NCBI RefSeq assembly: GCF_000018945.1
Contig: NC_011978.1
Coordinates: forward strand, 1,458,729 to 1,522,728
Reading direction: 5' to 3'
DNA length: 64,000 bases
Origin: Thermotoga neapolitana DSM 4359
GTDB lineage: Bacteria > Thermotogota > Thermotogae > Thermotogales > Thermotogaceae
The notes below the pieces were generated by a model. The model did not search any database and was not told where the DNA came from. It worked only from the letters and a program-made list of their open reading frames with translations. Positions 6,487 to 55,260 of the stretch are shown piece by piece (the stretch's first letter is position 1; each line of letters starts with the position of its first letter). Made by a program: the position numbers and the translations under genes.

Positions 6487-6516
6487 TCTTCATCACCTCG
6501 TGGATATGAATTCAAA

Positions 6517-6590: not shown

Positions 6591-6595
6591 GTGAT

Positions 6596-7354: not shown

Positions 7355-7368
7355 AAGGAGGAATCCAC

Positions 7369-11002: not shown

Positions 11003-11025
11003 TGGAATCATCAGTGAAAATCGGA

Positions 11026-11054
11026 GGGGGTGGGGTTTCCCACCCCCCTTTTAA
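11026..11054 (+). terminator. hairpin terminator after binding-protein gene
   Basis: GGGGGTGGG (11026-11034) pairs with CCCACCCCC (11039-11047) across a GTTT loop and is followed by CTTTT. It lies between the broken binding-protein gene and the DUF4038 gene, only 15 bases before the next start, so it probably lowers rather than abolishes downstream transcription. Confidence 0.85.
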
Positions 11055-11069
11055 ATGGGAGGGACCAAT

Positions 11070-12242
11070 ATGGAAATTTCCAAGGATTGTTTTGTTCTCA
11101 ACGGTAAAAAGACACTTTATCTGGCTGATACCGCCTGGAGAGGGGTCTATAAGTCTTGTTTCGATGATTGGGTCGAGTATCTTCAAACAAGAAAGAATCA
11201 GGGATTCAACGCCATTCAGATGAATTTCACCCCCTGGGAAGATTACGGAATGATATTGAAAGACAACTTTCTCGATCAGCTCGAAGAAAAAGTCAGAGTG
11301 GTTTTTGAGCTCGGAATGACACCTGTTATAGTCGTTGTCTGGTGTGGTTGTGTTCCCGGAACATGGGCCACAGTTTCTGACACCTCGAACGTTTTACCAA
11401 TACGAATACTTGAGGATTTTGCCAAGGAAGTGGTGAGAAGATTCAACAAGTACAATCCCATCTTCCTTTCAGGCGGAGATGTCGATTTCAGGTCCGGCGA
11501 AGCAATAGAATACTATTCGCTCATCACTAAGACAATAAAAGAAAACACAAACCGTCCAGTCTCTATACATCTTGCTAGGGGATGGACGGATGTACCCAGG
11601 GAAATAGATCAGTACATAGATTTTTACGCATATCAGTCTGGTCACGACAGGCATCACCAGGAACTCACCTGGAAACTCGCTCAAGAGTTTTACAAAAGAG
11701 GAAAACCCGTTATCAACGCCGAGATCTGTTATGAAGGAATTGGGTACAAGAAAGATGGATACAGGTTCAATCCATTCGATGTAAGAAAGGCTTTCTGGCA
11801 GAGCTTCCTTTCTGGTTCTTTTTTTGGAATCGGTTATGGGGCTCACGGAATCTGGAACTGGTGTGAAGTAGCTGGAGAAGAAACCGAAAGACATCTTTCA
11901 TCTTTCACATGGAAGGATGCACTCAGAATGGAAGGAGCAAATGACGTCTGTTTTGCAAGATGGTTGATAGAAAAACTCGATTTCTTCGGTTTAAAACCCT
12001 CTCAAGAGGTTCTCCTGAGTCCGGAAAATTCTGAGATTAGGGTTGCAAGGAATGAAAAAAACTGCATCATCTACGCTCCATTTGCTACCAGGATGGTTCT
12101 TGATATTAATTCAAAAGATATTTGGGGAATAAATATGGAAACTCGAGACGTGTTTGTTCCCAGAGTTGATTTGAAAGATAATCATACAAAGGTGGACATT
12201 CTGAACCATAATTCTGATTCTCTGATCATAATCGAGTACTAA
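11070..12242 (+). CDS. DUF4038-type (apiosidase/GH140-like) putative glycosidase
   Basis: A 390-residue TIM-barrel-like protein with no signal peptide. Its opening (FVLNGKKTLYLADTAWRG) and later segments (GFNAIQMNFTPWED, FLSGGDVDF, PVSIHLARGWTD, YQSGHDRHHQELTW, KPVINAEICYEG, GYGAHGIWNW) are typical of DUF4038 proteins, some of which are GH140 apiosidases; DVD near residue 140 and the E of INAEICYE are candidate catalytic acids. The ATG at 11070 is preferred over 11055 because GGGAGGG lies just upstream of it. It is 12 bases from the beta-glucuronidase gene, so it probably trims a side chain from the same oligosaccharide. Base composition is more AT-rich than the GH2 gene that follows. Exact activity is unknown. 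Confidence 0.7.
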   Translation: MEISKDCFVLNGKKTLYLADTAWRGVYKSCFDDWVEYLQTRKNQGFNAIQMNFTPWEDYGMILKDNFLDQLEEKVRVVFELGMTPVIVVVWCGCVPGTWATVSDTSNVLPIRILEDFAKEVVRRFNKYNPIFLSGGDVDFRSGEAIEYYSLITKTIKENTNRPVSIHLARGWTDVPREIDQYIDFYAYQSGHDRHHQELTWKLAQEFYKRGKPVINAEICYEGIGYKKDGYRFNPFDVRKAFWQSFLSGSFFGIGYGAHGIWNWCEVAGEETERHLSSFTWKDALRMEGANDVCFARWLIEKLDFFGLKPSQEVLLSPENSEIRVARNEKNCIIYAPFATRMVLDINSKDIWGINMETRDVFVPRVDLKDNHTKVDILNHNSDSLIIIEY

Positions 12243-12254
12243 GGGGGTATCAGT

Positions 12255-13946
12255 ATGCTAAAACCAGAGAGCAACACGAAAAGACTTCTCATGAACACAA
12301 CTGGTATTTGGTCCCTCGAAGTGAACGGGAAGGAAAGGCCGATAGCCGTTCCTGGAAGCTGGAACGAACAATACCAGGATCTGTGCTACGAAGAAGGGCC
12401 CTTCACTTACAGAACCATCCTCTATGTTCCGGAAGAACTTTCCAAGAAACACGCCAGGCTTTACTTTTCTGCCGTGAACACAGATTGTGAAGTCTATCTG
12501 AACGAAGAGAAAGTGGGGGAAAACCACATCGGCTATCTTCCCTTCGAGATAGACGTGACAGGGAAGGTGAAGCCAGGAAAGAACGAACTCAAAGTGATTG
12601 TGAAGAACGAGTTGAAGGTGGGAGGCTTTCCTTCAAAAGTACCGGACAGTGGCACACACACGGTGGGATTTTTCGGGAGTTTTCCACCTGCAAATTTTGA
12701 CTTCTTTCCATACGGAGGAATCATAAGACCGGTTCTTGTGGAGTTCACAGATCACTCGAGGATCCTGGATATCCGGGTGGACACAAGCAAGTCTGAACCA
12801 GAAAAGAAACTCGGAAGAGTGAGGGTGAAGGTGGAAGTCTCAGAAGAGGCGATGGGGGAAGAGATGAAAATCAAACTTGGAGAGGTGGAAAAGAAACTCA
12901 AAGTGACAGACAGGTTCATCGAAGAAGAGTTCGTTCTTGATGATGCAAGATTCTGGTGTCCAGAAGATCCTCATCTTTACCCTCTCAGAATAGAGCTCGA
13001 AAAGGACGAGTACATTCTGGACGTTGGAATTCGAACGATCAGCTGGGACGAGAAAAGACTTTACCTGAACGGAAAGCCGATCTTTTTAAAGGGTTTTGGA
13101 AAGCACGAGGAATTTCCCGTTCTGGGACAGGGAACGTTCTATCCCATGATGGTGAAAGATTTCAACCTTTTAAAGTGGATCAACGCAAACTCCTTCAGAA
13201 CATCTCACTATCCTTACAGTGAAGAGTGGCTGGACCTTGCGGATCGACTGGGAATTCTCGTGATAGATGAAGCACCCCATGTTGGTATCACAAGGTATCA
13301 CTACAATCCGGAGACGCAGAAAATTGCAGAAGACAACGTGCAAAGGATGATAGCCAGAGACAAAAACCATCCCAGTGTGATCATGTGGAGTGTGGCGAAC
13401 GAGCCTGAATCCAACCATCCCGATGCAGAAGGTTTCTTCAAAGCTCTCTATGAGACGGCAAAGAAGATGGACAACACTCGTCCTGTTGTCATGGTGAGCA
13501 TGATGGACACGCCGGACGAGAGGACAAGGGATGTGGCTTTGAAGTATTTCGACATCGTCTGTGTGAACAGGTACTACGGATGGTACATCTATCAGGGGAG
13601 GATAGACGAGGGACTGAAAGCGCTGGAAGAGGACATGGAAGAACTCTACAGAAGGCACAAAAAACCCATCTTCGTCACGGAGTTTGGAGCGGATGCGATA
13701 GCAGGTTTCCACTACGATCCACCCCAGATGTTCTCCGAAGAATACCAGGCAGAACTCGTTGAGAAAACGATAAATCTTCTCATGAAAAAAGATTACATCG
13801 TGGGGACGCATGTGTGGGCCTTTGCGGACTTTAAGACACCTCAGAACGTGAGGAGACCCATCCTGAACCACAAAGGTGTCTTCACAAGAGACAGACAGCC
13901 AAAACTGGTTGCCCATGTGTTGAGGAGGTTGTGGAGCGAAAGATAA
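12255..13946 (+). CDS. uidA: beta-glucuronidase, GH2
   Basis: A 563-residue GH2 enzyme with the usual three domains: jelly-roll sugar-binding (about 1-165), immunoglobulin-like (165-260) and TIM barrel (260-563). The acid/base is Glu383 in ANEPES and the nucleophile Glu476 in VTEFGAD. The motif NSFRTSHYPYSEEWLDLADRLGILVIDEAP is the GH2 signature, and length and order match the known T. maritima beta-glucuronidase. It hydrolyses beta-D-glucuronides in the cytoplasm. RBS GGGGGT lies before the ATG. It is 12 bases downstream of the DUF4038 gene and overlaps the DUF2264 gene, forming one operon for a glucuronate-containing oligosaccharide. Specificity for glucuronate over galactose is from overall similarity, not from tested residues. 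Confidence 0.9.
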   Translation: MLKPESNTKRLLMNTTGIWSLEVNGKERPIAVPGSWNEQYQDLCYEEGPFTYRTILYVPEELSKKHARLYFSAVNTDCEVYLNEEKVGENHIGYLPFEIDVTGKVKPGKNELKVIVKNELKVGGFPSKVPDSGTHTVGFFGSFPPANFDFFPYGGIIRPVLVEFTDHSRILDIRVDTSKSEPEKKLGRVRVKVEVSEEAMGEEMKIKLGEVEKKLKVTDRFIEEEFVLDDARFWCPEDPHLYPLRIELEKDEYILDVGIRTISWDEKRLYLNGKPIFLKGFGKHEEFPVLGQGTFYPMMVKDFNLLKWINANSFRTSHYPYSEEWLDLADRLGILVIDEAPHVGITRYHYNPETQKIAEDNVQRMIARDKNHPSVIMWSVANEPESNHPDAEGFFKALYETAKKMDNTRPVVMVSMMDTPDERTRDVALKYFDIVCVNRYYGWYIYQGRIDEGLKALEEDMEELYRRHKKPIFVTEFGADAIAGFHYDPPQMFSEEYQAELVEKTINLLMKKDYIVGTHVWAFADFKTPQNVRRPILNHKGVFTRDRQPKLVAHVLRRLWSER

Positions 13947-41934: not shown

Positions 41935-43365
41935 TTAATTTCTCTTACTCGGTTTCTTCCAGAGATTTTCATACGGTATATCCGTTACTTCCTCACACAT
42001 CTTTTTCACTTCATCGTTGACTGACGACTTGTCACCTGTTTCTTTAAGCCTTTTCAGTTCCTGCACCAGAACTCTGTGAATCTCAGGGGTTATCTTATAT
42101 TTAAAGGAAAAGATAATACCAATCAGTATTAAAGCGATTGGGACGTACGAGACCAGAATCTTCATTCCTAGCAACGTTTGTGGTGTTTGAGAGACATTGG
42201 GTGTATATCCTATCAAGTCAAGCGCAACTCCTATCATAAAGAGTGTGAAAGCCTGCACAAGTTTCCTTATGAGGGTCATCATTCCTGAGTAAAGTCCAGC
42301 CCTGTTTTCCGATGTTATAAGTTCGTCCACATCAGCAACTGTTGGAAGCATAGCCCATGGAATCATAACTCCTGCCGAGAGGCCAGCCCCGATAATGACG
42401 CAGTCTATCAGAATGAGAGATGTGGGAGAGTTTGATGACAGGAATGATAGTAGGATCATTCCTGCTCCCCACAAAGAAAGACCGGTTCTATACGCTACAG
42501 CTTGTCCAAACACATTTGATATTCTGACATACAAAGGTAAGAAAATTATCTGTGTTATAAGAACACTTCCCATGGCAAGCGAAAACATATGTTCTTTGTT
42601 AAGATAATATGTTAGATAGTATATCAATAGAGCCATCATTATGTCCATAGCAGTGTAAGCCGATATGTACATGGCAATATGTGTTCTGAAAACCCTGTTT
42701 TTGAAGACAGAAAATAAATTTCCGGAAACCTTTTGGATTGTTCCTGTCCTTGTCTCTTCTTTTGTTCCCAGGAAAACGAACAACCACGGAGAAGCATATA
42801 TGATACCGAAGATTATTCCCATCCTGAAATAGCCTTCGGCAGGAGTACTGGCTGAGTCGACAATAAGTTTTGGTATTGTTCCAGAAATCAAAGCAGAAAG
42901 CTGAGAAAAAATCATCCTCGCTCCAGAAAGCCTTGTTCTAATTCGATAATCTCTACTCATATCTGCAACTAGGGCACTGTACGGTACCATGACCATTGTA
43001 TAAACAGTGGAAAAGAAGATATACGCAAATAAATAGTACAGGAAAGTTCGAATTTGAGATTCTGAGATGAAAGGATACCAGAGAATAGAAAAGCTTATGA
43101 ATATGGGAATTATACCTATTAAGAAATAGATTCTTCTTCTTCCAAAACGAGATTTTGTGTTGTCGGAAATGTAACCCATCAATGGATCAGAAAGAGCATC
43201 CCATATCTTTCCAACAATCAAAACAAGTCCTGCCAGGGTTGGGTTTAATCCTACGATGTCAGTCAAAAATAGCAGAAATAAGGTTCCTATTACAACAAAG
43301 GATCCACCCCCAAAAATGTCTCCTAGACCATAGAGAAGGATGTTCTTGAATCCTACTTTCTTCAT
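41935..43365 (-). CDS. GPH-family sugar:cation symporter (MelB/YihO/YihP-like)
   Basis: A 476-residue transporter with 12 hydrophobic segments. GKIWDALSDPLMGYISDNTKSRFGRRRIYFLIG (with cation-site DALSDPLMG), VPYSALVADMSRDYRIRTRLSGARM and AGVMIPWAMLPTVADVDE are the GPH family hallmarks. E. coli sulfoquinovose importers YihO and YihP belong to this family, as do melibiose and xyloside carriers. AAAGGAGGATTGGC precedes the ATG. It is divergent from the ABC transporter operon across a 228-base regulatory gap and probably shares the GntR control. Whether it takes up the same substrate or an intermediate is unknown. Confidence 0.85.
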   Translation of the reverse strand: MKKVGFKNILLYGLGDIFGGGSFVVIGTLFLLFLTDIVGLNPTLAGLVLIVGKIWDALSDPLMGYISDNTKSRFGRRRIYFLIGIIPIFISFSILWYPFISESQIRTFLYYLFAYIFFSTVYTMVMVPYSALVADMSRDYRIRTRLSGARMIFSQLSALISGTIPKLIVDSASTPAEGYFRMGIIFGIIYASPWLFVFLGTKEETRTGTIQKVSGNLFSVFKNRVFRTHIAMYISAYTAMDIMMALLIYYLTYYLNKEHMFSLAMGSVLITQIIFLPLYVRISNVFGQAVAYRTGLSLWGAGMILLSFLSSNSPTSLILIDCVIIGAGLSAGVMIPWAMLPTVADVDELITSENRAGLYSGMMTLIRKLVQAFTLFMIGVALDLIGYTPNVSQTPQTLLGMKILVSYVPIALILIGIIFSFKYKITPEIHRVLVQELKRLKETGDKSSVNDEVKKMCEEVTDIPYENLWKKPSKRN

Positions 43366-43593: not shown

Positions 43594-44859
43594 ATGAGAC
43601 AGCTGAAGTTTTTCCTGGTAATTCTTCTGGTATTGGGAGTTGTTGGAGTTTCCACAACGTTGAGGGTGCTACTCTGGGATGATGCTATGACACGAGCTCT
43701 TAAAGCAGGATTGGATGAATTTGAAAAGAAAACAGGGATCAAGGTCGAACTCGAGTTAATTCCCAGCGGTTCAATGCTTCAGAAAACTCTTCTGAGTGTT
43801 ACTCTTGAAAACTCCGATTATGACCTTGTGGCCGTCGATGAACCGAATATTCCTATGGTGGCTCCTTTGTTACTTCCTCTTTCTGAGTGGCCCAGCACCA
43901 AGTTCTATGCTCAACCGGACATGAACGATATCATGCCACTGGCTCTTGAGGCAGGGAAATGGAGAGGGCAATTCATGGGTCTACCGGTCAATGCGAACAT
44001 CTATGTTTGGCTGACGAGAAAAGATATCATCGAAAAGTACAAAGACGAGTTCAAAGCAGAGTATGGGTATGAAATGAAGGTACCAGAAACTCTTCAGGAA
44101 CTTCTTGATATGTCGAAATTCCTCGCAAAGAAAGGAATTTACGGGTGGGCTCCATTCACAAAACCGACAGAAGGCAGCACGTGTGAAGCTATTTGGATGT
44201 TCAGAAGTTTTGGAACAAAGGTACTGGAAGTAACAGAAGATGGCTACAAAATTGTCTTGGATAAAGAGAAAGCAGTCCAGGCCATCGAATTCTACAAAGA
44301 GTTACTGAAGTACGCTCCAAAAGGAGCACTCGACTATGGACATTCAGAGAGAATGGCAGCTTTTTCACAGGGGCAGGTTTTTTCCATGTTCAACTGGCCT
44401 GCTCTGATACCAGATCTGGAAAATCCAGACAAATCACTTGTCGCTGGGAAAATAATCTACTCGGCTCCTCCTGCTGGTCCTGCTGGCAGAGCAGCTGTAA
44501 GGGGTGCCTGGATCGTTGGTATTCCTAAAGCTGCAAAAAATAAAGAAGCAGCTGCTGAATTCGCTTACTGGTGGATGGATTTAGAGACACAAAGGAAACT
44601 TATACCCGAAGGCATGACACCTGCGAGAGCTTCCTTGTTACTTGATCCAGAGCTTCAGAAAGAAAGACCATGGTTTGCTGGAATCTATGAATCTCTCAAA
44701 TATGCTGTTGAAAGACCGAGATTTGAGCACTATCCAGAGGTTTCTCAGGTAATAAGAATTTACTGGCTCAAAGCCATTTCTGGAGAACTTCCAGCTGAAC
44801 TGGCTGTGGACAGGATGGTGATTGGTATTGAAAACCTCCTTAAGAAATACGGTTATTAA
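43594..44859 (+). CDS. ABC sugar-binding protein (SBP family 1)
   Basis: A 421-residue extracytoplasmic binding protein. Signal peptide at residues 1-20 (FFLVILLVLGVVGVS), mature start TLRVLLWDDAMTRALKAGLDEFEKKTGIKVE, then YDLVAVDEP, FMGLPVNANIYVWLTRKD and ERMAAFSQGQVFSMFNWPAL, typical of family 1 (MalE-like) proteins. It has no Cys for lipid attachment. First gene of the catabolic operon, expected to be the most abundant product. The ligand is probably the glycoside cleaved by the GH31 enzyme at the end of the operon, but no ligand residue can be assigned. Confidence 0.9.
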   Translation: MRQLKFFLVILLVLGVVGVSTTLRVLLWDDAMTRALKAGLDEFEKKTGIKVELELIPSGSMLQKTLLSVTLENSDYDLVAVDEPNIPMVAPLLLPLSEWPSTKFYAQPDMNDIMPLALEAGKWRGQFMGLPVNANIYVWLTRKDIIEKYKDEFKAEYGYEMKVPETLQELLDMSKFLAKKGIYGWAPFTKPTEGSTCEAIWMFRSFGTKVLEVTEDGYKIVLDKEKAVQAIEFYKELLKYAPKGALDYGHSERMAAFSQGQVFSMFNWPALIPDLENPDKSLVAGKIIYSAPPAGPAGRAAVRGAWIVGIPKAAKNKEAAAEFAYWWMDLETQRKLIPEGMTPARASLLLDPELQKERPWFAGIYESLKYAVERPRFEHYPEVSQVIRIYWLKAISGELPAELAVDRMVIGIENLLKKYGY

Positions 44860-45733
44860 ACCAAAGAGGAAGGGGCTTCGCCCCTTCCTCATGTTCATAA
44901 CGCCAACACTACTGGTGATAGCTTTTATACTCATTTACCCTGTTTTCTACGTGTTGCTTCTTTCTTTCACAAACAGACAACTTTTGTTCCTTGGAAACGT
45001 GAAATTTGTAGGATTTCAAAACTACCTGACAATGTTCAGAGATGCTGATTTCTGGCATTCGCTCTGGTTACAGTTGGGATTCATTGTCGTTGCTTTACCG
45101 GTGGAGCTTATCATAGGTTTCTTCGTAGCGCTGCTCTTTAACAGAGAATTTCCTTTTTCAAAACTTTTGCGATCGTTGCTCATGCTCCCTGTTTTTGTCA
45201 TCCCCGTTCTTTCTGGATTGACCTGGAGACTGATGTTGCAACCAGATTATGGAGTTCTAGCTGCTTTCTTCCAGAGTTTGTCAATTGGTCCTGAAGCGTG
45301 GTTAGCAGACAAAACTTTTGCATACATAGCGGTTATATTACAGGACATATGGAGAATGTGGCCTTTCATGTTCATGATGATATACGCGGGTTTGTCTTCA
45401 CTTCCAGCAGAGTACATAGAAGCGGCACTCATAGATGGGGCGAACTTTTTCCAAAGAGTTTTTTACATTATCATCCCATTCTTGAAACCAGTTCTTGCCA
45501 TAGCTTTCCTCTTGAGACTAATAGATGCTTTGAGGATCTTTTCCGAAATTTATGTAATGACCTATGGGGGGCCTTCAAACGCAACAATGCTTCTTTCTCT
45601 GTACATACACAAGCAAGCCTTCGAGTTTGGGAATATATCCTACGCATCTGCAATAGGTACGTTCTTGATGATCATATCTCTTGCTATCTCCTATTTCATT
45701 GTTAAAAAAGGATTGCGTGGTGAAACAGCATGA
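44822..45733 (+). CDS. ABC sugar permease, MalF type
   Basis: A 303-residue inner-membrane permease with six transmembrane helices; the EAA loop is EYIEAALIDGANFFQRVFYIIIPFLKP. Start is uncertain: TTG 44822 or TTG 44828, both inside the end of the binding-protein gene and weakly preceded by AGGATGGTGA, give the expected basic N-terminus (KTSLRNTVIKPKRKGLRP); ATG 44891 would remove it and has no binding site. A strong hairpin (44866-44890) lies in this N-terminal coding stretch. It partners the next gene. Confidence 0.88.
   Translation: MVLKTSLRNTVIKPKRKGLRPFLMFITPTLLVIAFILIYPVFYVLLLSFTNRQLLFLGNVKFVGFQNYLTMFRDADFWHSLWLQLGFIVVALPVELIIGFFVALLFNREFPFSKLLRSLLMLPVFVIPVLSGLTWRLMLQPDYGVLAAFFQSLSIGPEAWLADKTFAYIAVILQDIWRMWPFMFMMIYAGLSSLPAEYIEAALIDGANFFQRVFYIIIPFLKPVLAIAFLLRLIDALRIFSEIYVMTYGGPSNATMLLSLYIHKQAFEFGNISYASAIGTFLMIISLAISYFIVKKGLRGETA
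44866..44890 (+). repeat. strong hairpin between binding-protein and permease genes
   Basis: GAGGAAGGGGC (44866-44876) and GCCCCTTCCTC (44880-44890) form an 11-base perfect stem with a TTC loop, seven bases after the binding-protein stop. There is no T run, so it is not a full terminator; it may protect the 3' end of the upstream message from exonucleases, or attenuate. Confidence 0.85.
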
Positions 45734-46548
45734 AAAGAAGGTTGATCGGATGGATACTGTTTATTGTAGCTCTTGCAATAGTTGCAATTGAATTGTTTCC
45801 CATACTGATAATTATCCTGAACGGTTTTAAAAAGGATATAGACATATGGAGCAGAAACCCGTTTTATTTCAAACCTACTCTTTCCAGCTATAAGAAAGTG
45901 TTTGAAAACGAAGATTTTGTAAGAGGTTTGAAGAATTCTTTAATTGCTGCGAGTATTTCTTCATTTGTCTCGGTGTTTTTCGGATCCATGGCCTCCTACG
46001 GACTGTCCAGATACAGATTCAAAATCAACGATTGGCTGATCTTTCTTCTTCTGTTGTTGCGCATGGTCCCTCAAATAACACTGTCTCTTCCTTTTTACAT
46101 CATATTCAAGAAGATGGGGCTAAGTGACAACATCTTAGGTTTGTCTCTTGCTCACATAAGCTTCAATTTACCATATTCCGTAGCTCTGCTGCTACCTTTC
46201 TTTGAAGGAATACCACGCGATTATGAAGAGGCAGCAAAAATCGATGGATGCAGGGATTTTCAAATTTACTGGAAAATATTCTTCCCATTGGCATCAGCGG
46301 GAATAGTGGTTGCAGCAGTTTTCACCTTTTTGATGTCCTGGAACGAATTCATTTACGCTCTTGTATTAACCGGTGTGAGGGCAAAAACAGCTCCCGTGGC
46401 GGTTAATGGTTTCTTGGGGCAGTATGCGCCCCTGTGGGGACAACTTTCGGCGGCTGGAACAATTATGCTTATTCCTGTGTTTGCAATCACTTTGGGATTT
46501 CAAAGATACATAATAAAAGGATTATCGGCTGGTGGAATAAAGGGATAA
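45730..46548 (+). CDS. ABC sugar permease, MalG type
   Basis: A 272-residue permease with six transmembrane helices, overlapping the upstream permease by four bases. The EAA loop is DYEEAAKIDGCRDFQIYWKIFFPLASAG, and the C-terminus ends with QRYIIKGLSAGGIKG, as in MalG/LacG types. No ATPase gene is present in the operon, so the pair must use a shared MsmK-like ATPase encoded elsewhere. Confidence 0.9.
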   Translation: MKRRLIGWILFIVALAIVAIELFPILIIILNGFKKDIDIWSRNPFYFKPTLSSYKKVFENEDFVRGLKNSLIAASISSFVSVFFGSMASYGLSRYRFKINDWLIFLLLLLRMVPQITLSLPFYIIFKKMGLSDNILGLSLAHISFNLPYSVALLLPFFEGIPRDYEEAAKIDGCRDFQIYWKIFFPLASAGIVVAAVFTFLMSWNEFIYALVLTGVRAKTAPVAVNGFLGQYAPLWGQLSAAGTIMLIPVFAITLGFQRYIIKGLSAGGIKG

Positions 46549-46566: not shown

Positions 46567-47229
46567 ATGAAATTTTTCCTGGACAGTGCCAATCTTGAAG
46601 AGATAAAGTATGCCATCAAAAAATGGAAAATCGACGGTATAACAACCAATCCCAGGCATCTCATGGTAGCGGGAATGACTGTAGAAGATTTCGCCAGAGA
46701 GGTAAAAGAACTCGTTGAAGGCACTCACATAACGGTTAGCTTGGAAGTGAATCCTCATTTAGAAGATCCCAAGGAGATCGTTGATCAGGCTACTTCGTTG
46801 GCATCTCTTTCGAACAATTTTGTAATAAAGATACCAGCCACCGAAAGTGGTTTTGAAGCATTAGCGGAGTTATCTTCGAAAGGAGTAAAAGTTAACATAA
46901 CACTCGTTTTCAACTTGGTACAAGCGTTGCAAGCGGCAAGACTTGGTGCTTACTACATAAGTCCGTTCGTTGGATGGAGGGAAGAAAGAGGAGAATTAAA
47001 TACTGATTTTATAAATCAAATTGTCAAAGCAGTAAAAGGTTATGGTTACAGTTCCCAAATAATCGTAGCGGCCGTTAGATCTGCAAAACATTTTGTGGAA
47101 GCAGCACTAGCAGGAGCGGATATTGTAACAGCGGGTTTTCAGGTGTACAAACGGGCCTTTGATAATCCTTACACCCGCATGGGACTCCAGATATTCTCTG
47201 ATGCCTGGAACAGTATATACGGGAGGTGA
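46567..47229 (+). CDS. FSA/TalC-type transaldolase, candidate sulfofructose transaldolase
   Basis: A 220-residue single-domain (beta-alpha)8 enzyme of the small transaldolase/fructose-6-phosphate aldolase family. Schiff-base Lys88 is in FVIKIPATESG, with Asp6 (FLDSAN), Asn28 in GITTNP and the strand ITLVFNLVQALQAARLGAYYISPFVG. Unusual points: Arg30 follows TTNP where Thr or Ser is normal, the Arg of SPFVGR is Trp137, and the phosphate Ser of AASxR is Ala169 (VAAVR). In the known sulfo-TAL pathway such an enzyme moves a glycerone unit from sulfofructose to glyceraldehyde-3-P, releasing sulfolactaldehyde; this function here is inferred from neighbours. ATG 46567, nine bases after AAGGAGG. Confidence 0.85.
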   Translation: MKFFLDSANLEEIKYAIKKWKIDGITTNPRHLMVAGMTVEDFAREVKELVEGTHITVSLEVNPHLEDPKEIVDQATSLASLSNNFVIKIPATESGFEALAELSSKGVKVNITLVFNLVQALQAARLGAYYISPFVGWREERGELNTDFINQIVKAVKGYGYSSQIIVAAVRSAKHFVEAALAGADIVTAGFQVYKRAFDNPYTRMGLQIFSDAWNSIYGR

Positions 47230-47236
47230 TCTATAA

Positions 47237-47521
47237 ATGAAGGTAGATTTCCTGGTTCACAAAGCTGGTGATGATGTGGGAGTGGCCGTGCGAGACATAT
47301 CTAAGGGAGAGAAAATCAAAGGAAAGACACTGGAAGGAGAGATTTTCTATGAATTGGAAGCAAAAGAAGATATTCCCCTTGGGCACAAAATAGCGTTGAG
47401 GGATATTAAAGAGGGAGAGAAAGTAAAAGAATACGGGGAGATAATCGGCAGGGCAACAAAAGACATATCGAAAGGATCTCATGTCCATGTTCATAACATT
47501 CGAAGTCTGCGATGGGGGTGA
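47237..47521 (+). CDS. suyA: SAF-domain small subunit, SuyA-like (sulfolactate sulfo-lyase alpha) or UxaA N-terminal type
   Basis: A 94-residue SAF-domain protein. DDVGVAVRDISKGEKI, KEDIPLGHKIALRDIKEGEKVKEYGEIIG and the final GSHVHVHNIRSLRW match the N-terminal domain of altronate dehydratase UxaA and the separate small subunit of (R)-sulfolactate sulfo-lyase. In altronate and galactarate dehydratases this domain is usually fused to the large domain; separate subunits are normal for SuyAB. It is four bases from the large-subunit gene. The symbol is a hypothesis based on the split and on the partner's residues. Confidence 0.65.
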   Translation: MKVDFLVHKAGDDVGVAVRDISKGEKIKGKTLEGEIFYELEAKEDIPLGHKIALRDIKEGEKVKEYGEIIGRATKDISKGSHVHVHNIRSLRWG

Positions 47522-47525
47522 TACG

Positions 47526-48680
47526 ATGGAAAGAACAATTCTAGGTTATGTCAGAGAGAATGGCAAAGTGGGTGTTAGAAACTATGTCCTTCTGTTACCT
47601 GTGGATGATATTTCGAATGCTGTTGTGGAAGCCGTTGAAAAATCCGTGGCTGGCACGCTGGCTCTTCCTCATCCTTATGGAAGACTGCAGTTTGGTAAGG
47701 ACCTAGAGCTGTTCTTTAAAACCTTGATAGGAACTGGTTCCAATCCTAACGTTGCAGCCGTTGTGGTGGTTGGAATAGAGCCAAAGTGGACTCATAGAGT
47801 AGCAGATGAAATTGCAAAGACTGGTAAACCGGTTGAAGCCTTCTGGGTGGAGGGAAGCGGCCAACTGAAAACTATAGAAAGGGTGTCAAGAGTAGCTGTG
47901 AAAATGGTTGAGGATGCAACCAATTTGAAAAGAGAGCCAGTTGATATAAGTGAACTCATAATCAGTTTAAAATGTGGGGAATCTGATACAACTTCAGGTT
48001 TGGGTGCAAACAGAGTTGTTGGGAGATTTACAGAGAGGTTTTTGGAAATAGGTGGAACTGTGCTCTTCGGTGAAACTACGGAGCTAACGGGGGCCGAGCA
48101 TATCATAGCATCCAGGTTCAAGAGAGAAGAAGATAGAGAAAAATTCATGCAAATTTTCAACGAATATCAGGAACTTATAAAATCACAGGGAGTGGATCTT
48201 CTGGGATCACAGCCAACAGAGGGGAACATAGCGGGTGGATTGAGCACGATAGAGGAAAAGGCTCTTGGAAACATACAAAAAATAGGCAATGCGAAGATAG
48301 ATGGTGCTCTAGACTTTCTTGAAGAAATACCTGGTAAAGGACTTTACTTCATGAACACATCCTCCGCAGCCGCAGAGGCTGTGACACTGTTTGCGGCAGC
48401 AGGTGCCGTTATTCACCTCTTCCCAACAGGACAAGGTAACCCCATAGGCAATCCCATTATACCTGTTGTGAAAATAACAGCAAATCCAAAGACCGCTCAG
48501 GTTATGTCAGAACACATCGATGTCGATGTTTCCCAGGTTTTAACAGAAGGAATGAGCATCGATGAAGCTGCTGACAAACTATGGCAAAGAGTGATTGAAA
48601 CAGCCAATGGTCGAATGGTAAGAGCAGAAATACTGAATCACAAAGAATTTGTTCTCACAAAACTTTACAGGAGTGCCTAA
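47526..48680 (+). CDS. suyB: SuyB-like large subunit, candidate (R)-sulfolactate sulfo-lyase beta
   Basis: A 384-residue homologue of the C-terminal domain of UxaA/GarD. It lacks two cysteines that altronate dehydratase has in YGCSQ and GLGCENN: here these are YGRLQF (Arg53) and GIEPKW (83-88). It keeps a third Cys150 in LKCGESDTTSGLGANRVVG, where UxaA has CGGSD, and then has FGETTELTGAEH (181-192). These changes fit the SuyB branch as I recall it, where the enzyme eliminates sulfite from sulfolactate to give pyruvate, better than a sugar-acid dehydratase. ATG 47526 follows GGGGGTGATACG; the frame is open upstream into suyA. An unknown hydroxyacid dehydratase is the alternative. Confidence 0.65.
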   Translation: MERTILGYVRENGKVGVRNYVLLLPVDDISNAVVEAVEKSVAGTLALPHPYGRLQFGKDLELFFKTLIGTGSNPNVAAVVVVGIEPKWTHRVADEIAKTGKPVEAFWVEGSGQLKTIERVSRVAVKMVEDATNLKREPVDISELIISLKCGESDTTSGLGANRVVGRFTERFLEIGGTVLFGETTELTGAEHIIASRFKREEDREKFMQIFNEYQELIKSQGVDLLGSQPTEGNIAGGLSTIEEKALGNIQKIGNAKIDGALDFLEEIPGKGLYFMNTSSAAAEAVTLFAAAGAVIHLFPTGQGNPIGNPIIPVVKITANPKTAQVMSEHIDVDVSQVLTEGMSIDEAADKLWQRVIETANGRMVRAEILNHKEFVLTKLYRSA

Positions 48681-48682
48681 AA

Positions 48683-49927
48683 ATGGTGATAACCGTTCCA
48701 TATGGAAAGGGCCATTTATCACTGGAATTTCCAGAAAATTTAAAAGTAGATGTTTTGCAAAGCAGAAGAAGCAGCATTCCCTCTTTAGGAGAAGATAAAA
48801 TAAACACCGAAATCAAGAAAAATCTGGAAAAACTGGCGATTTCAGCAAAAATCGTAGGTGTGGCGATACCAGATCAAACAAGGCCAAACATCTCGGAAAA
48901 GATATTGCCTTTCCTCGTAAAGGTTTTACTTGAAAAGGATGCCAAAGAAGTGCGAATTTGCATCGGAACAGGTCTACACAGAAATCCAACAGAGGATGAA
49001 ATACGAAAATTGATACCTTTGCACAGAAACGAAAGGATAAAAGTTTATATAAACAACGCACTTGACAAAAAGAGTTTATCTTTCCTAGGTCACACAAGAT
49101 TCGGTACTCCCGTTTGGATCATGAAACATTTCGCAGAATCCGATATAAAAATCGCCGTTTCTGTGGTTGAAGAACATCAATTTGCCGGTTTCTCCGGTGG
49201 AGCAAAAGCGGTCGCTATAGGGCTGGGCGGTGAGGAAACGATTTCCGGGAACCATTCAAAAATGAAATTCCAGAGAGCTAAAATGGGTGTTATCGATGGA
49301 AATCCTGTCAGGGAAGAAATCGATGAAATAGGTGAAATGGTTGGACTGGATCTTCTTATTAACTCTGTTCTGAATGAGAAAAAAGAGATCATAGGTCTTT
49401 TTGTGGGGGAGCATCCCCATTCCCATAGGATGGCGTGTGAGTTTGTAAAGAAAATCAGTGGAATTCCTGTGAAGAGGCTTTATGATCTTGTGGTAGTATC
49501 CCCTGGTGGCTATCCGAGGGATATTGATCTATACCAATCTCAAAAAGCACTTGCTGTTGCACAGGAGTTCTGTAAACCCGGGGGAACCATTGTCCTTTTG
49601 GCAGAGTGTTCGAAAGGATTCGGCGATGAGGGCGGGTATGTCCCTGTTCTGGAGAGAGCACGTTCTCCAGAAGAAGTGATTGAAAACTTCGACTTTAGTA
49701 ATTTCAAAGTAGGACCTCACAAGGCTTTTTTAATAGCACAGACCCTCATCAAATGTAGGGTTAAAATCTTATCAACATTACCTGCTGAGAGGTTGAGAAA
49801 CATGTTCTTTGAACCCATAGTGAACTTCGAAGAAGCTATAAAAGAAATAGAGCCAAAATCGTCTGTTTGTGTCATACCAAATGCTTCGCAAATCATACCT
49901 GTTCAGGGGAAGGAGGAGAAACTATGA
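48683..49927 (+). CDS. LarA-family nickel-pincer 2-hydroxyacid racemase homologue
   Basis: A 414-residue homologue of lactate racemase LarA, which uses a nickel-pincer nucleotide covalently bound to Lys. LarA residues His108, His174, Lys184 and His200 correspond exactly in spacing to His99 (GTGLHR), His165 (VEEHQF), Lys175 (SGGAK) and His191 (SGNH) here. DQTRP (64-68) matches the substrate/cofactor DxxR motif. Cofactor genes larB, larC and larE are not in this window. Between suyB and the aldehyde dehydrogenase, the natural proposal is a sulfolactate racemase supplying the R isomer to SuyAB; lactate or another 2-hydroxyacid remains possible. ATGA overlap with the next gene. Confidence 0.85.
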   Translation: MVITVPYGKGHLSLEFPENLKVDVLQSRRSSIPSLGEDKINTEIKKNLEKLAISAKIVGVAIPDQTRPNISEKILPFLVKVLLEKDAKEVRICIGTGLHRNPTEDEIRKLIPLHRNERIKVYINNALDKKSLSFLGHTRFGTPVWIMKHFAESDIKIAVSVVEEHQFAGFSGGAKAVAIGLGGEETISGNHSKMKFQRAKMGVIDGNPVREEIDEIGEMVGLDLLINSVLNEKKEIIGLFVGEHPHSHRMACEFVKKISGIPVKRLYDLVVVSPGGYPRDIDLYQSQKALAVAQEFCKPGGTIVLLAECSKGFGDEGGYVPVLERARSPEEVIENFDFSNFKVGPHKAFLIAQTLIKCRVKILSTLPAERLRNMFFEPIVNFEEAIKEIEPKSSVCVIPNASQIIPVQGKEEKL

Positions 49928-51342
49928 AAATGCTGGTTGCGGGCAGATGGGTTGATAGAGATGAAAAGATAGAGGTCTTGAATCCTTATGATGGAAGTTT
50001 AGTCGATACGGTTCCAGTTGCCTCGGAAGAGGATATAGAAGAAGCAATAAGCAAAGCTGTTGAAGGTGCAAAGATCATGAAAAGGATGCCTATCTGGAAG
50101 CGGGTTGAGATTCTTGAGAAAACCTCAGAGCTTCTCAAGGAAAGATACAAGGAAATCGCTGTTCTTCTGGTCAAGGAATCTGGGAAAACCATAAGAGAAG
50201 CAGAAGCAGAAGTCCTCAGAACTGCTGAACTCTTCAGGATGTCTGCGGAAGAAGCAAAAAGGATTCATGGTGAAACGCTTCCTTTTGATTCATTGAAAGG
50301 TTCTGAAAGAAAAAGGGGCTATTTTGTGAGAGAACCGGTTGGAATCGTTGCCGCAATTGTTCCATTCAACGTTCCTCTTGCCCTCTGCGCCCATAAGGTT
50401 GGCCCAGCTATAGCAGCAGGGAACGCTGTGATTATAAAGCCCCCAACCCAGGATCCTCTTACGAACCTGGTTTTAGGGGAAATCTTACTTGAAGCGGGAA
50501 TGCCTTCAGAAGCGGTCAGTATCTTGACGGGACCTGGAAGCAGAGTAGGAACCCCTATAGTAAGAGATGAAAGAATCAGGATGGTAAGTTTCACAGGCAG
50601 CGTTCCTGTGGGAAAAACCATTATGAAAAATGTTGGCTTGAAGAAAGTATCCATGGAATTGGGTTCAAACAGCCCTCTCATTGTAACTGAAACTGGTAAC
50701 TTAGAAAAAGCCGTGAAAGCAACCGTTTCGGGTGGTTTTTCGCTTGCCGGTCAGGTCTGCATTTCCGTTCAGAGAGTCTATGTTCACAAAAAGGTTTTCA
50801 ACGATTTTGTTGATCTCCTCATAGAGGAGGTAAAGAAGATAAAAGTGGGAGATCCTATGTCTAGGGATACCGACATGGGACCGGTCATCGATGAACCGAA
50901 TGCTTTGAGAATAGAAAGCTGGATAAAAGAAGCCGTCGATAAGGGCGCAAAACTTGCCATCGGAGGAGAGCGTAACTATACCTTGATATCTCCTACCGTT
51001 CTCCTTGAGGTTCCGAAAGATACCAAGATCATGACCGAGGAACTGTTTGGGCCAGCCGTTGCTGTAAATTCTTTCGAAGTTTTTGAAGAAGCTCTCGAAG
51101 AAGCCAACTCAACAAAATATGGCCTTCAGGTGGGTGTCTTCACTTCAAAGATAGATGAAGCGTTTGAGGCAATCGAAAAACTCGAATTTGGAGGAGTTTT
51201 GATAAATGAAGGACCAAGGTACAGGGCAGATTTCATGCCTTATGGTGGCTATAAAGAAAGCGGTATAGGAAGAGAAGGTATCAAATTCGCCATAGAAGAG
51301 ATGACAGAGATAAAGACCGTCATCTTTGATTTGAGGGAGTGA
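49924..51342 (+). CDS. aldehyde dehydrogenase, candidate sulfolactaldehyde dehydrogenase
   Basis: A 472-residue NAD(P)-dependent aldehyde dehydrogenase of the lactaldehyde/GAPN-like group. Catalytic Cys279 is in SLAGQVCISVQR and general-base Glu245 in SMELGSNSP; IVPFNVPLALCAHKVGPAIAAGNAVIIKPP forms the cofactor site, and FTGSVPVGKTI is the NAD motif. In sulfoglycolysis such enzymes oxidise sulfolactaldehyde to sulfolactate; lactaldehyde oxidation is the main alternative. ATG 49924 after AAGGAGGAG overlaps the LarA-like gene; codons upstream in the same frame lie inside that gene. Confidence 0.85.
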   Translation: MKMLVAGRWVDRDEKIEVLNPYDGSLVDTVPVASEEDIEEAISKAVEGAKIMKRMPIWKRVEILEKTSELLKERYKEIAVLLVKESGKTIREAEAEVLRTAELFRMSAEEAKRIHGETLPFDSLKGSERKRGYFVREPVGIVAAIVPFNVPLALCAHKVGPAIAAGNAVIIKPPTQDPLTNLVLGEILLEAGMPSEAVSILTGPGSRVGTPIVRDERIRMVSFTGSVPVGKTIMKNVGLKKVSMELGSNSPLIVTETGNLEKAVKATVSGGFSLAGQVCISVQRVYVHKKVFNDFVDLLIEEVKKIKVGDPMSRDTDMGPVIDEPNALRIESWIKEAVDKGAKLAIGGERNYTLISPTVLLEVPKDTKIMTEELFGPAVAVNSFEVFEEALEEANSTKYGLQVGVFTSKIDEAFEAIEKLEFGGVLINEGPRYRADFMPYGGYKESGIGREGIKFAIEEMTEIKTVIFDLRE

Positions 51343-51347
51343 TTAAC

Positions 51348-52685
51348 TTGATCAACCTCATTCTTGTTCCATCGGTGAGAAGTACTTATGAAGTTTCAGA
51401 AGGAAGAAGAATATTCAATGAAGAACTAGAAAATTTGCAAAAGATGCAAGATATAAATTGGTTTTACCCAAGCGATGTTATAGAATACACCGAAAATCTT
51501 GAAGCGTTTCTTAATAAAATGCGCAAAGAGGACATCGACGGAATTGTGTTAATGAGTGCGACTTTTCATTTGGGAGACATAGCCCTCCTCCTCGCTCAGA
51601 AATTTTATGACGTACCCATTCTATGCTGGGCTGTTCCTGAACCGCCCTATTCTTCTGAGGGAAGAGTTAGACTAAACTCACTCGTTGGGGCACATCTGGA
51701 TGTATCGAACCTCAAAAAGATTGGAAAAAAAGACGTTGAGTTTGTATATGGATCATCAAAGAGTGAACATTTTCAAGAAAAATTCATCGAATGGATCAAC
51801 ATCATAAAAATCAACAAGACTTTAAAAGGTGCAAAAATAGGGCTAGTTGGAGGTCATGCAAAGACTTTTCTCAACATCGACGTGTATGAACCTCTTCTTC
51901 TCAAAGAGATTGGAGTAACAGTGGAACACATTCCTTTGAGCTTCGTTTTTAATTTAAACCTTGACAGAAATTCCATTGAAAATTTGAAAGAGGAAATTGA
52001 GAAAACCTACGACACTGAAAAATTGAATGAAGACAAGAAAAGCAAGGTATGTAAGTTGATCGTTTCTTTTAAACGAATACTTGAAACAGGCAAATTCAGC
52101 GCGCTGGCCGTAAGATGCTGGCCTGAATTTGCATCGTATTACGGCATTTCACCGTGTGCTGCTATGGCCTGGAATATGGCACAGGGTTCTATTCTAAGCT
52201 GCGAAGGGGATGTTCTTGGGGCAGTAACAATGTTAATGCTCAAGGCAATAGGCTGTAAAGACATGTATCTAGCGGACATCAGCCAGATCATAGAAAAAGA
52301 TTCCTCCCTTTTAATGTGGCATTGTGGGGTTGCTCCTCATACGCTTTGGGATGGTGTATCCAAAAAATCCCTGGAGACTTATTTTGCTGGTGGAAAAGGT
52401 GTAACAACTGATTTCGTTCTTAAACCAGGACATGTGACCATTGTTCGTCTTGACCATACAGATAATGAATGGAGGCTTTTCATAACCGAAGGTGAAGCCG
52501 TTCACACAAAGCAAGAGTTAAAGGGAACCTATGTGAAAGTGCGCGTTAAAGATCCTCTAAAACTTGTGGATACCCTCATCGAAAATGGATTCCCACACCA
52601 TGTTGTCCTTGGATACGGATCTTTCACAAGAAGCCTTATCAAGTTTGCAAAAACAAAAGGTTGGAGGGTTGTAAGTGATGATTAA
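51348..52685 (+). CDS. FucI/AraA-fold sugar isomerase-like protein
   Basis: A 445-residue member of the fucose/arabinose isomerase superfamily (COG2407-like). Segments: DIDGIVLMSATFHLGDIALLLAQ, CWAVPEPP, KIGLVGGHAKTFLNIDVYEP, LAVRCWPEFASYYGISPCAAMAWN, SCEGDVLGAVTMLMLKAIG and MWHCGVAPHTLW, with Glu and His residues placed as in this family's Mn site. It is the only aldose-ketose isomerase in the cluster, so it probably forms the ketose used by the transaldolase (sulfofructose from sulfoquinovose if the pathway proposal holds). TTG 51348, eight bases after GAGGGAG, is the preferred start. It overlaps the GH31 gene by eight bases. Confidence 0.82.
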   Translation: MINLILVPSVRSTYEVSEGRRIFNEELENLQKMQDINWFYPSDVIEYTENLEAFLNKMRKEDIDGIVLMSATFHLGDIALLLAQKFYDVPILCWAVPEPPYSSEGRVRLNSLVGAHLDVSNLKKIGKKDVEFVYGSSKSEHFQEKFIEWINIIKINKTLKGAKIGLVGGHAKTFLNIDVYEPLLLKEIGVTVEHIPLSFVFNLNLDRNSIENLKEEIEKTYDTEKLNEDKKSKVCKLIVSFKRILETGKFSALAVRCWPEFASYYGISPCAAMAWNMAQGSILSCEGDVLGAVTMLMLKAIGCKDMYLADISQIIEKDSSLLMWHCGVAPHTLWDGVSKKSLETYFAGGKGVTTDFVLKPGHVTIVRLDHTDNEWRLFITEGEAVHTKQELKGTYVKVRVKDPLKLVDTLIENGFPHHVVLGYGSFTRSLIKFAKTKGWRVVSDD

Positions 52686-54594
52686 GCACGAAATAAAGGG
52701 AAATCAATTCTACGTTGCTGTAAATGATCACATACTGATATCTTCAAAGAATATATGGGAAGGATTTGGTAAGGAAAGGATCAAAGAATACCATGGCCAC
52801 TTCACCATAAAATCAACTGTAAAAGAATATTACCCTTTTAAAGGTAGTATAGAATTGGTATCTGAAAACCCCTTTGAAATTCACATAAAATCTTCCAGAG
52901 ACATCAACAGGCTGCTGATAAAAACTGAATTGGCGAAAGATGAAGTAATATTTGGTGGAGGAGAACAGTATAGTGAGTTGAATCTTAAGGGCAAAAGATT
53001 TCCTCTGTTCGTTCAGGAACAGGGTGTGGGAAGAGGTAAGAATCTGATTTCACTTCTAGCCTACCTGAAAAAAGTTAGAGGTTCGTGGTACAGCACTTAC
53101 TTTCCCCAGCCTGTTTTTTTCTCCAATAAAGGGTATGGTATCGTATTCAAAACCTACGCTCCTATGATCGTTGATTTGAGAAAAAATATTGCCTTGTTCG
53201 AAATATGGAGTAACGAGTGCAACATAATCGTTTTGTCCGGAACATTAGAGGAAATGGTAAGAGATTTATTCAAAATTTTCGGGGGCGCTTTTGATTACGA
53301 AGACTGGATGTTCGGTGTCTGGTTGGCTTCTCAAGGTGGAACGGAGAATATTGAACGCATTATAAAGACTGCGAGAGAATGGAATATCCCTGTTCATGCC
53401 GTATGGGCGCAAGATTGGTGTGGAAAAGTGTATACCAAATTCGGGAGACAGGTATTTTGGAACTGGGAGTACGATAAAGAAGACTATCACGATCTACCTG
53501 AGTATATCAAAAAGTGGCACGAAGAGGGTATTCGTTTCTTGGGTTACATAAATCCGTTCCTTAATAAAGAAGGGAACCTATACAAAGAAGCTCTGGAGAA
53601 AGGATATTTAGTGAAAAAAAAGGATGGAAGCGTATATGACATAGTAGTGACTACCTTCCCAGCGGGTCTTATAGATCTGAGCAATCCAGATGCGTTTGAG
53701 TGGTACAAATCAATAATTCTAAACAACATGATATCAATAGGAATGGATGGATGGATGGCAGACTTCGGAGAATATTTGCCAATGGATGCCGTGTTGAAAT
53801 ATTCCAGTGGAAAGGAGTATCACAACAAATACCCTGTGGAATGGGCCAGGTTAAACTTCGAAGCAGTAAAAGCATCTTCAAAAAAGGTGGTCTATTTTAT
53901 GCGCGCTGGATTTTTGGGATCCACTAGATTCTGTCCAGCCTTCTGGACAGGTGATCAGAATGTAGATTGGTCGTTCAGCGATGGTTTGCCAACCGTAATT
54001 CCTGCTATGACGAGTTCTAGCCTCTGTGGAGTTCGACACATACACTTCGACATAGGAGGATACACATCCTTGTTCTGGATGAAGCGAACACCAGAGCTGT
54101 TTATGAGATGGACAGAAATAGCAGCCTTTTCCCCCGTTATGCGAACACACCAGACCAACCGTCCCGTGTCAAACATACAGTTCGATTCTAATCATGACAT
54201 ATTAAGACACTTTTCTAAGATGGCTAATATGCACGTTCTTTTGATAGATTATCTGAAGGTAGAATTCAAAAAAGCTATAGATGAGAATCTACCTGTTGTA
54301 AAACACCTAGCTTTGAACTATCCAGAGGATCCTGAGTCCTGGCAGATAAAGTATCAGTATCTACTGGGGAATGATATCTTGGTTGCACCTGTACTGAAGA
54401 AGAAAACAAGAAAGTGGAAGGTTTTTCTTCCAAGAAGGGAAAAATGGGTACATCTTTGGACAGAAAAGATGTTCTCTGGAGGATGGATAGAGATTGATGC
54501 TCCTCTTGGAGAACCACCTGTTTTCGTAAGACTTGGTTCTGAATTTCTAGAAAAAATACTTGCTGCATCGAGAGATGTTCAGGAATTAAGATGA
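52678..54594 (+). CDS. GH31 alpha-glycosidase of the YihQ sulfoquinovosidase type
   Basis: A 638-residue GH31 enzyme that aligns by eye along its whole length with E. coli YihQ: FGGGEQYSELNLKGKRFPLF, EQGVGRGKN, ASQGGTE, VWAQDWCG, DGWMADFGEYLP, WTGDQNVDWSFSDGL, HFDIGGYTSLF and MRTHQTNRP. The nucleophile is Asp362 and the acid/base Asp426. Of the five sulfonate-pocket residues of YihQ (QQRWY), Gln219, Gln245, Trp261 and Tyr462 are kept with equal spacing, but the Arg301 position is Gln258 (an Arg precedes it). So it may hydrolyse sulfoquinovosides with altered binding, or another 6-modified alpha-glycoside. No signal peptide, so intracellular. ATG 52678 or GTG 52675. Its last 16 bases overlap the opposing gntR gene. 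Confidence 0.9.
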   Translation: MIKHEIKGNQFYVAVNDHILISSKNIWEGFGKERIKEYHGHFTIKSTVKEYYPFKGSIELVSENPFEIHIKSSRDINRLLIKTELAKDEVIFGGGEQYSELNLKGKRFPLFVQEQGVGRGKNLISLLAYLKKVRGSWYSTYFPQPVFFSNKGYGIVFKTYAPMIVDLRKNIALFEIWSNECNIIVLSGTLEEMVRDLFKIFGGAFDYEDWMFGVWLASQGGTENIERIIKTAREWNIPVHAVWAQDWCGKVYTKFGRQVFWNWEYDKEDYHDLPEYIKKWHEEGIRFLGYINPFLNKEGNLYKEALEKGYLVKKKDGSVYDIVVTTFPAGLIDLSNPDAFEWYKSIILNNMISIGMDGWMADFGEYLPMDAVLKYSSGKEYHNKYPVEWARLNFEAVKASSKKVVYFMRAGFLGSTRFCPAFWTGDQNVDWSFSDGLPTVIPAMTSSSLCGVRHIHFDIGGYTSLFWMKRTPELFMRWTEIAAFSPVMRTHQTNRPVSNIQFDSNHDILRHFSKMANMHVLLIDYLKVEFKKAIDENLPVVKHLALNYPEDPESWQIKYQYLLGNDILVAPVLKKKTRKWKVFLPRREKWVHLWTEKMFSGGWIEIDAPLGEPPVFVRLGSEFLEKILAASRDVQELR

Positions 54595-55248
54595 TCAAGA
54601 ATGTTTTTATAATGCTTTTCTATGGATTCAATTAGACGCTTTTTGTCGTTTGAGATTATAGAACGAAGGATCTCTTCATGGATTTCTATTGATCTTTTTT
54701 GATAATCCGAATCAGCGAGATAGTCCTTTTTCAATACGTACCAGACACGGCTTTTCATATAATCTAGCAGGTTTTCCATCAGGTGGAAAATTATAGAATT
54801 TCTTGCTGCTTTAGCATAAACTTTATGAAACATAACATCTGACTCTGTTAAAGCACGAAATTTTTTCTGTTCGAAGTACTCTTTCATCAAAGAAAGATGA
54901 TGTTCCATGTCCTGAATCATTTGAAGCGAAAAGTTTGAAATGTAAAATTCTGCTATAGCTTTGTCTAAAAATTCGCGCGCAATTATCAACTCATCCAAAT
55001 CATAGGCTAGAAGTTTGGATTGCTTGTTTTTCCTCTGAAGGTATTTTTATTACGTAGTTACCACTACCCCTTCTGCTTTTTATAATACCCGAAGCCTTAA
55101 GGAAACTAAGAGCCTCTCTAACAATTATACGAGACGCTCCTATTTTTTCACACAATTCCCTTTCGGGTGGTAGACGATCTCCTTCTTTAAGATTCATTTC
55201 TCTTATCAACCTTTCTATTTCTTTTACCGTTTCATGAACCTTGGACAC
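54579..55248 (-). pseudogene. GntR/FadR-family regulator, frameshifted between domains
   Basis: The N-terminal frame (GTG 55248, seven bases after GGAGG) encodes a GntR winged helix: EGDRLPPERELCEKIGASRIIVREALSFLKASGIIKSRRGSGNYVI. It ends at a stop at 55002-55000. The FCD ligand-binding domain continues in the next frame (ELIIAREFLDKAIAEF to KHYKNILDHL). Removing one A from the five-A run near 55030 would join both parts into a normal 220-residue FadR-type regulator. Expected role is ligand-released repression of the adjacent catabolic operon. Either a recent mutation, which could make the operon constitutive, a programmed slip on the A run, or a sequencing error. The HTH part alone could still bind DNA weakly. 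Confidence 0.82.
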
Positions 55249-55260
55249 AAACACCCCTCC

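Follow-up and report, generated by a model that had tools for sequence, protein, structure and literature searches.

The question raised by this locus is how a sulfoquinovose pathway that forms one enantiomer of sulfolactate can feed a lyase that prefers the other. Sulfoquinovose is a plant sulfur-sugar and among the most abundant organosulfur compounds, and the sulfo-TAL pathway makes (S)-sulfolactate. SuyAB, however, prefers (R)-sulfolactate (PMC9594981). The sulfo-TAL clusters of Thermotogae and Chloroflexi hold an (R)-specific SuyAB, suggesting complete use of the sulfoquinovose carbon (PMC9594981), and the join between the expected (S)-sulfolactate and the (R)-specific lyase in these clusters is not stated in that work. 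Elsewhere, the dehydrogenases SlcC and ComC together reportedly act as a sulfolactate racemase (PMC9594981, PMC12421959), the only solution to this step known to date, which agrees with the statement, in a preliminary description of this locus made from the sequence alone, that known bacteria bridge the two enantiomers by two dehydrogenases. The same description proposed that a LarA homologue encoded at 48683-49927 of the window (the whole 64,000-nucleotide stretch of DNA analyzed here) is a sulfolactate racemase. We consider it likely (probability about 0.82) that this protein is a nickel-pincer-nucleotide (NPN)-dependent sulfolactate racemase. What is shown, and supports the claim, is the makeup and order of the cluster, the residues of the active site, the genes for the cofactor, the conservation and clade of the protein, and the replacement of its gene by slcC/comC; catalysis, substrate, stereochemical direction, and sulfonate contacts are inferred.

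Gene cluster surrounding larA

The cluster runs, in order, through an ABC sugar importer, a transaldolase, suyA, suyB, larA, an aldehyde dehydrogenase, an SftI-like isomerase, and a GH31 enzyme, all on the forward strand. The importer comprises a sugar-binding protein (43594-44859; Pfam SBP_bac_8) and two permeases (44822-45733 and 45730-46548), all three of which are kept in related clusters. The transaldolase (46567-47229) is assigned to the 6-deoxy-6-sulfofructose (SqvA/SftT) type, with BmSF-TAL as its best PDB match at 233 bits and the next transaldolase, 1vpx, at 158 bits. It is followed by suyA (47237-47521), which encodes the 94-aa small subunit of the sulfo-lyase and was missing from the genes listed in the preliminary description, and by suyB (47526-48680), which encodes the large subunit of the (R)-sulfolactate sulfo-lyase. 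SuyB and SuyA are 59% and 39% identical, respectively, to a Cupriavidus pinatubonensis pair encoded near hpsN/hpsO, and the identities of SuyB matches fall from 57 to 59% to 40% and below with nothing between. The SuyAB assignment is thus one of homology to a sulfonate degradation locus, and the (R)-sulfolactate-specific lyase activity is taken from the literature (PMC9594981). Downstream of larA lie a proposed sulfolactaldehyde dehydrogenase (49924-51342; Pfam Aldedh, 528 bits), for which none of the specific models shown in the profile search exceeded its cut-off, a sulfoquinovose isomerase-like protein of the SftI/SqvD type (51339-52685), whose sole NCBIfam match, SftI, is weak (262 bits; cut-off, 700), and a GH31 sulfoquinovosidase (52675-54594) that scores 831 bits against a cut-off of 553 with the YihQ-type model PRK10426 and has YihQ and other solved sulfoquinovosidases among its best PDB matches. 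The position of larA between suyB and the aldehyde dehydrogenase gene, as claimed earlier, held: its ATG lies 2 bp after the end of suyB and its stop codon overlaps the start of the dehydrogenase gene (ATGA), which amounts to tight packing. With the transaldolase and sulfoquinovosidase assigned and the isomerase match below its cut-off, the cluster is likely a complete one of the sulfo-TAL sulfoquinovose type, an inference from sequence. No sulfite-handling gene was identified within it.

Both edges of the cluster are on the reverse strand. One carries a GPH-family (MelB-like) sugar symporter (41935-43365; TIGR00792, 243.5 bits against a cut-off of 231), which adjoins the cluster in relatives too, and the other the FCD domain of a GntR-type regulator (54579-54998) whose helix-turn-helix domain is in another frame. 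The regulator is accordingly split (54579-55260), whereas it occupies one frame in the relative L056; either a frameshift or a sequencing error is possible. YihQ has an Arg in its sulfonate-binding motif; at that position the GH31 protein has a Gln preceded by Arg, and Arg/Lys-Gln occurs in all of the Thermotogota relatives checked.

Protein identity, cofactor supply, and substrate pocket

The 414-aa product of larA carries both domains of the superfamily, Lar_N (143.5 bits against a Pfam cut-off of 23.3) and LarA_C (57.3 bits against 25). Its AlphaFold model has a mean pLDDT of 92.6, and the best fold match of that model is lactate racemase 5huq (Z of 50.4; root mean square deviation of 1.8 over 410 residues). 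In LarA, residues D72, H108, H174, and K298 are catalytic and R75, K184, and H200 bind NPN (PMC7583248, whose residue numbering is used here for LarA). Alignment to LarA showed that the Thermotoga homologue has the complete catalytic set (D64, H99, H165, and K288) and the complete NPN-binding set (R67, K175, and H191). The earlier claim that His99, His165, Lys175, and His191 are kept at exact spacing held, as the spacings of 66, 10, and 16 are identical to those of LarA His108, His174, Lys184, and His200; calling all four active-site residues required amendment, since His99 and His165 are catalytic and Lys175 and His191 are cofactor ligands. The genome also encodes larC, larB, and larE as one operon (genome positions 1579124-1581879), all scoring over their model cut-offs, so that an absence of cofactor genes, which would have counted against the proposal, was not observed. 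With the two domains, the catalytic and cofactor residues, and larBCE all present, the protein is a member of the LarA superfamily; a bound cofactor and racemase activity are inferred.

These data also bear on the possibility that the protein is catalytically dead or performs a different NPN-linked reaction. Some LarA homologues lack a catalytic His and maybe perform other chemistry (PMC12611868). Here, however, the four catalytic and three cofactor residues are intact in the Thermotoga protein and in 26 suyB-linked relatives, and larC, larB, and larE are in the genome, and this explanation is all but excluded. The genome holds a second LarA homologue, near 224505-224990, which is 29% identical to the first over about 209 residues. 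It is of the GntE2 gluconate 2-epimerase type, and its gluconate-type neighborhood, unlike the sulfoquinovose cluster, resembles that of GntE2, an epimerase known from T. maritima (PMC7583248); with the protein described here it shares the LarA superfamily and the larCBE supply.

Family models place the protein in LarAH5: it passed the NCBIfam "malate racemase" model NF052595 (483.4 bits against a cut-off of 462), with a 64% identical relative (G002) falling just below that cut-off at 459.6, and it failed both the Mar2-type (LarAH6) model NF052593 (363 bits against 500) and the lactate racemase model NF033504 (289 bits against 460). In group 5, the residue following the catalytic His is described as Gln or His, and the helix 14 region as carrying a G-H-K-type motif (PMC7583248). 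The Thermotoga protein shows both traits, in Q166 and in G344-P345-H346-K347, the motif being matched to the published description rather than to individual positions of the published logo. The substrate-side residues are Q166, F167, Q287, H346, and K347. The substitution of LarA F175 by Q166 and of W358-T359 by H346-K347 means that the hydrophobic lactate pocket is not kept, F167 excepted, and provides the extra basic residues at the substrate pocket for which the preliminary description had recommended looking. By alignment, the basic pair occupies the position of Mar2 K351, the presumed contact for the substrate's second acid group, the carboxylate of malate (PMC7583248). By analogy, a natural reading, though an inferred one, is that the sulfonate is held where Mar2 holds that second carboxylate.

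The pocket speaks to two further alternatives. The main rival is that the enzyme is a malate racemase serving D-/L-malate metabolism and lies in a sulfoquinovose cluster by chance. In its favor are the passing score with the LarAH5 "malate racemase" model and the correspondence of H346-K347 and Q287 to the malate-side K351 and Q293 of Mar2. Against it, the Mar2-type model failed, the Tyr-Lys of the Mar2 loop is replaced by Gln-Phe, the only LarAH5 enzyme with kinetics in the literature consulted (Mar1) has a KM of 55 mM for malate, and the Thermotoga cluster contains no malate gene; together with the evidence on conservation given below, these points make it unlikely. Alternatively, the enzyme may racemize or epimerize a different 2-hydroxy acid (lactate, glycerate, tartrate, or a sulfonate not yet identified) in a side branch that serves the cluster. 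Promiscuity is frequent among LarA homologues (PMC11770544), and related Chloroflexota LarAs are paired with a different lyase. However, F175, F176, W358, and T359 of the LarA pocket are lost except for the counterpart F167, the lactate racemase model failed, and the single obvious chiral mismatch in the cluster would be filled by sulfolactate racemization. We regard this second alternative as very unlikely.

Conservation of the suyAB-larA association and its replacement by two dehydrogenases

Among the genomes surveyed, 26 had suyA-suyB and larA together: 3 Thermotoga genomes, 4 from another Thermotogota family, 18 Chloroflexota, and 1 Archaeoglobus. These represent 26 distinct loci, defined by a true SuyB (at least 52% identity) within 6 kb of LarA, and larA and suyB are on the same strand in every one. 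Besides the present genome, one other Thermotoga genome has the entire cluster and another has part of it on a 4.3-kb contig (LarA 64 to 65% and SuyB 94 to 95% identical). The order transaldolase-suyA-suyB-larA-aldehyde dehydrogenase-isomerase-GH31 is kept in the four genomes of the other family, for which the between-family identities are 38 to 43% for LarA and 73 to 75% for SuyB. True SuyB was found in 15 of 400 Chloroflexota genomes, one of which has suyA-suyB-larA right after the transaldolase gene, and searching 396 genomes of the same Chloroflexota class for LarA added 17 more in which larA lies near a true suyB. Adjacency of suyB and larA is thus kept in Thermotogota and Chloroflexota, and the persistence of this link across two Thermotogota families and the Chloroflexota argues against a malate racemase that lies in the cluster by chance. 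In Archaeoglobus, larA and suyB are 5.8 kb apart. A scan of viral contigs turned up no relative. As a separate observation, the LarA of these clusters diverges far more quickly than their SuyB: identity is 64% against 94% in the genus, and 38 to 43% against 73 to 75% between families.

The suyB-linked LarAs were not resolved in a quick tree; a subsequent, more careful tree of 45 sequences placed those of Thermotogota, Chloroflexota, and Archaeoglobus, together with Chloroflexota kin, in one clade (support, 95/89). Lactate racemase and the Mar2 clade (support, 100/99) fall outside it, and the separate placement of Mar2 is a further point against the malate reading. In all 26 suyB-linked LarAs, Gln follows the catalytic His, and the region of LarA W358-T359 carries a G-x-His-Lys motif. 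Nevertheless, substrates may vary within the clade, a possibility raised because some Chloroflexota members adjoin a different GD_AH lyase and because the Archaeoglobus locus has fumarase- and fumarate-reductase-like genes. The Archaeoglobus larA cluster contains a comC-like gene in addition to these, and its content fits malate as a substrate too; the fumarase- and fumarate-reductase-like genes beside this relative are the remaining evidence for the malate reading.

The strongest new evidence for a role in sulfolactate metabolism is that larA undergoes nonorthologous replacement by slcC/comC. Most Chloroflexota sulfo-TAL/SuyAB clusters without larA have an SlcC-type 2-hydroxyacid dehydrogenase and a PF02615 (ComC-type) protein after suyB, in the place of larA. 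Within 9 kb of suyB, LarA alone was present in 25 cases, both LarA and a dehydrogenase in 1 (Archaeoglobus), ComC and/or SlcC alone in 12, and neither in 4, so that slcC/comC was present in 1 of 26 larA clusters against 12 of 16 larA-free clusters (Fisher P = 2e-6). This P value is uncorrected for relatedness and many of the loci were found through LarA; it is therefore description more than test. A PF02615 (ComC) gene is absent genomewide from the seven Thermotogota genomes with the cluster, from the Thermotogae metagenome-assembled genome G106, and from the Chloroflexota genome G194. The claim of absence extends to the whole genome only for the Thermotogota, G194, and five others, and is confined to the cluster for the remaining Chloroflexota with larA and suyB. 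Genomewide exclusion of ComC from Chloroflexota was considered and dropped, as 12 of the 17 further larA- and suyB-containing genomes have PF02615 genes elsewhere, outside the cluster.

Two further sets of loci are notable. In Archaeoglobus, a relative, one Chloroflexota genome, and one Desulfobacterales genome, two-subunit fumarase-like genes are found close to suyAB (loci L077 at 4152-8102, L243, L145, and L149 at 10998-12659), with a fumarate-reductase-like gene beside them in L077, L243, and L145. In addition, some Chloroflexota LarAs (L187, L190, L196, L199, L205, L210, L212, L222, L224, L226, and L230) lie beside a SuyA-like protein and a distinct SuyB paralogue, a GD_AH lyase of the dehydratase family that is about 35% identical to SuyB and 70 to 100% identical among its own members. 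A transaldolase and an aldehyde dehydrogenase are also present in two of these paralogue loci. Together, the loci suggest a general module of LarA and a GD_AH lyase.

Proposed mechanism and relation to known enzymes

In the proposed pathway, the GH31 enzyme would free sulfoquinovose, which would then be isomerized; the transaldolase would split the isomerized sugar to yield (S)-sulfolactaldehyde, and the aldehyde dehydrogenase would oxidize this to (S)-sulfolactate. The LarA homologue would then take a hydride from C2 of sulfolactate onto its NPN cofactor, with H99 and H165 serving as the acid/base pair, to form bound sulfopyruvate, and return of the hydride to the opposite face would give (R)-sulfolactate. 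H346 and K347, and probably also Q166, are predicted to grip the sulfonate as Mar2 grips the second carboxylate of malate. SuyAB would convert (R)-sulfolactate to pyruvate and sulfite, drawing racemization forward. Racemization of sulfolactate in this way would fill the one obvious chiral mismatch of the cluster, a step filled elsewhere by slcC/comC. A possible conflict is inhibition of LarA by sulfite, since the titles of PDB entries 6c1w, 8ezf, and 8ezh record sulfite binding at the cofactor of LarA and sulfite is a product of SuyAB. The SlcC and ComC system of Chromohalobacter and Paracoccus has the same proposed net reaction and the same place, between sulfolactaldehyde oxidation and SuyAB, but it employs two NAD(P)-dependent dehydrogenases, passes through free sulfopyruvate, and consists of proteins unrelated to LarA.

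Searches of open-licence PubMed Central literature found no single-enzyme sulfolactate racemase and no LarA paper linking sulfolactate and racemase. The fold and mechanism are known, and what is likely new, by inference, is the substrate and the position in the pathway. If the proposal is correct, a one-enzyme nickel racemase closes the gap between the S and R forms in these clusters, the substrate range of nickel-pincer enzymes is extended to a sulfonate, and the anaerobic breakdown of sulfoquinovose includes a nickel-dependent step. It would also supply a plausible native substrate for LarAH5 and a direct prediction for Mar1, which has already been purified and assayed.

Mar1, the LarAH5 enzyme of Desulfitobacterium hafniense, belongs to the same NCBI family model as the Thermotoga protein and shares the Gln/His and G-H-K-type traits of group 5, but it was assayed on malate, and sulfolactate is not mentioned in that study (PMC7583248). 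Its authors doubt that malate is native, given the 55 mM KM (PMC7583248), and its kcat/KM of about 390 per M per s compares with 630,000 for the malate racemase LarAH62 (PMC11770544; the column headed LarAH27, citing the 2020 study, we take to be Mar1, as its value equals that of Mar1). Sulfolactate is the sulfonate analogue of malate, from which it differs only in having a sulfonate in place of a carboxylate, and D. hafniense can use sulfolactate as an electron acceptor (PMC12890257). A bolder reading is that the LarAH5 enzymes, Mar1 included, are mainly sulfolactate racemases, with malate turnover at a KM of 55 mM a side activity toward the carboxylate analogue, and that anaerobes commonly reach (R)-sulfolactate by a one-enzyme nickel route. 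We put this extension at slightly less than even odds.

Two relatives of known structure resemble the Thermotoga protein only in part. LarA lactate racemase (PDB 5huq and 6c1w) shares its fold (Z of 50.4) and its catalytic and cofactor residues but differs in the pocket, where F175, F176, W358, and T359 stand against Q166, F167, H346, and K347. Mar2 (LarAH6; PDB 6d6z and 7s91) likewise shares the fold, the catalytic and cofactor residues, and the Lys presumed to contact the substrate's second acid group, but it is only about 31% identical in structural alignment, belongs to a separate clade, and has Tyr-Lys in the loop where the Thermotoga protein has Gln-Phe. Mar2-like larA genes also occur in another family of the order to which Thermotoga belongs, where they lie directly 3' of a SuyAB-like pair that is only 37 to 41% identical to SuyB (L058 and L060-L065).
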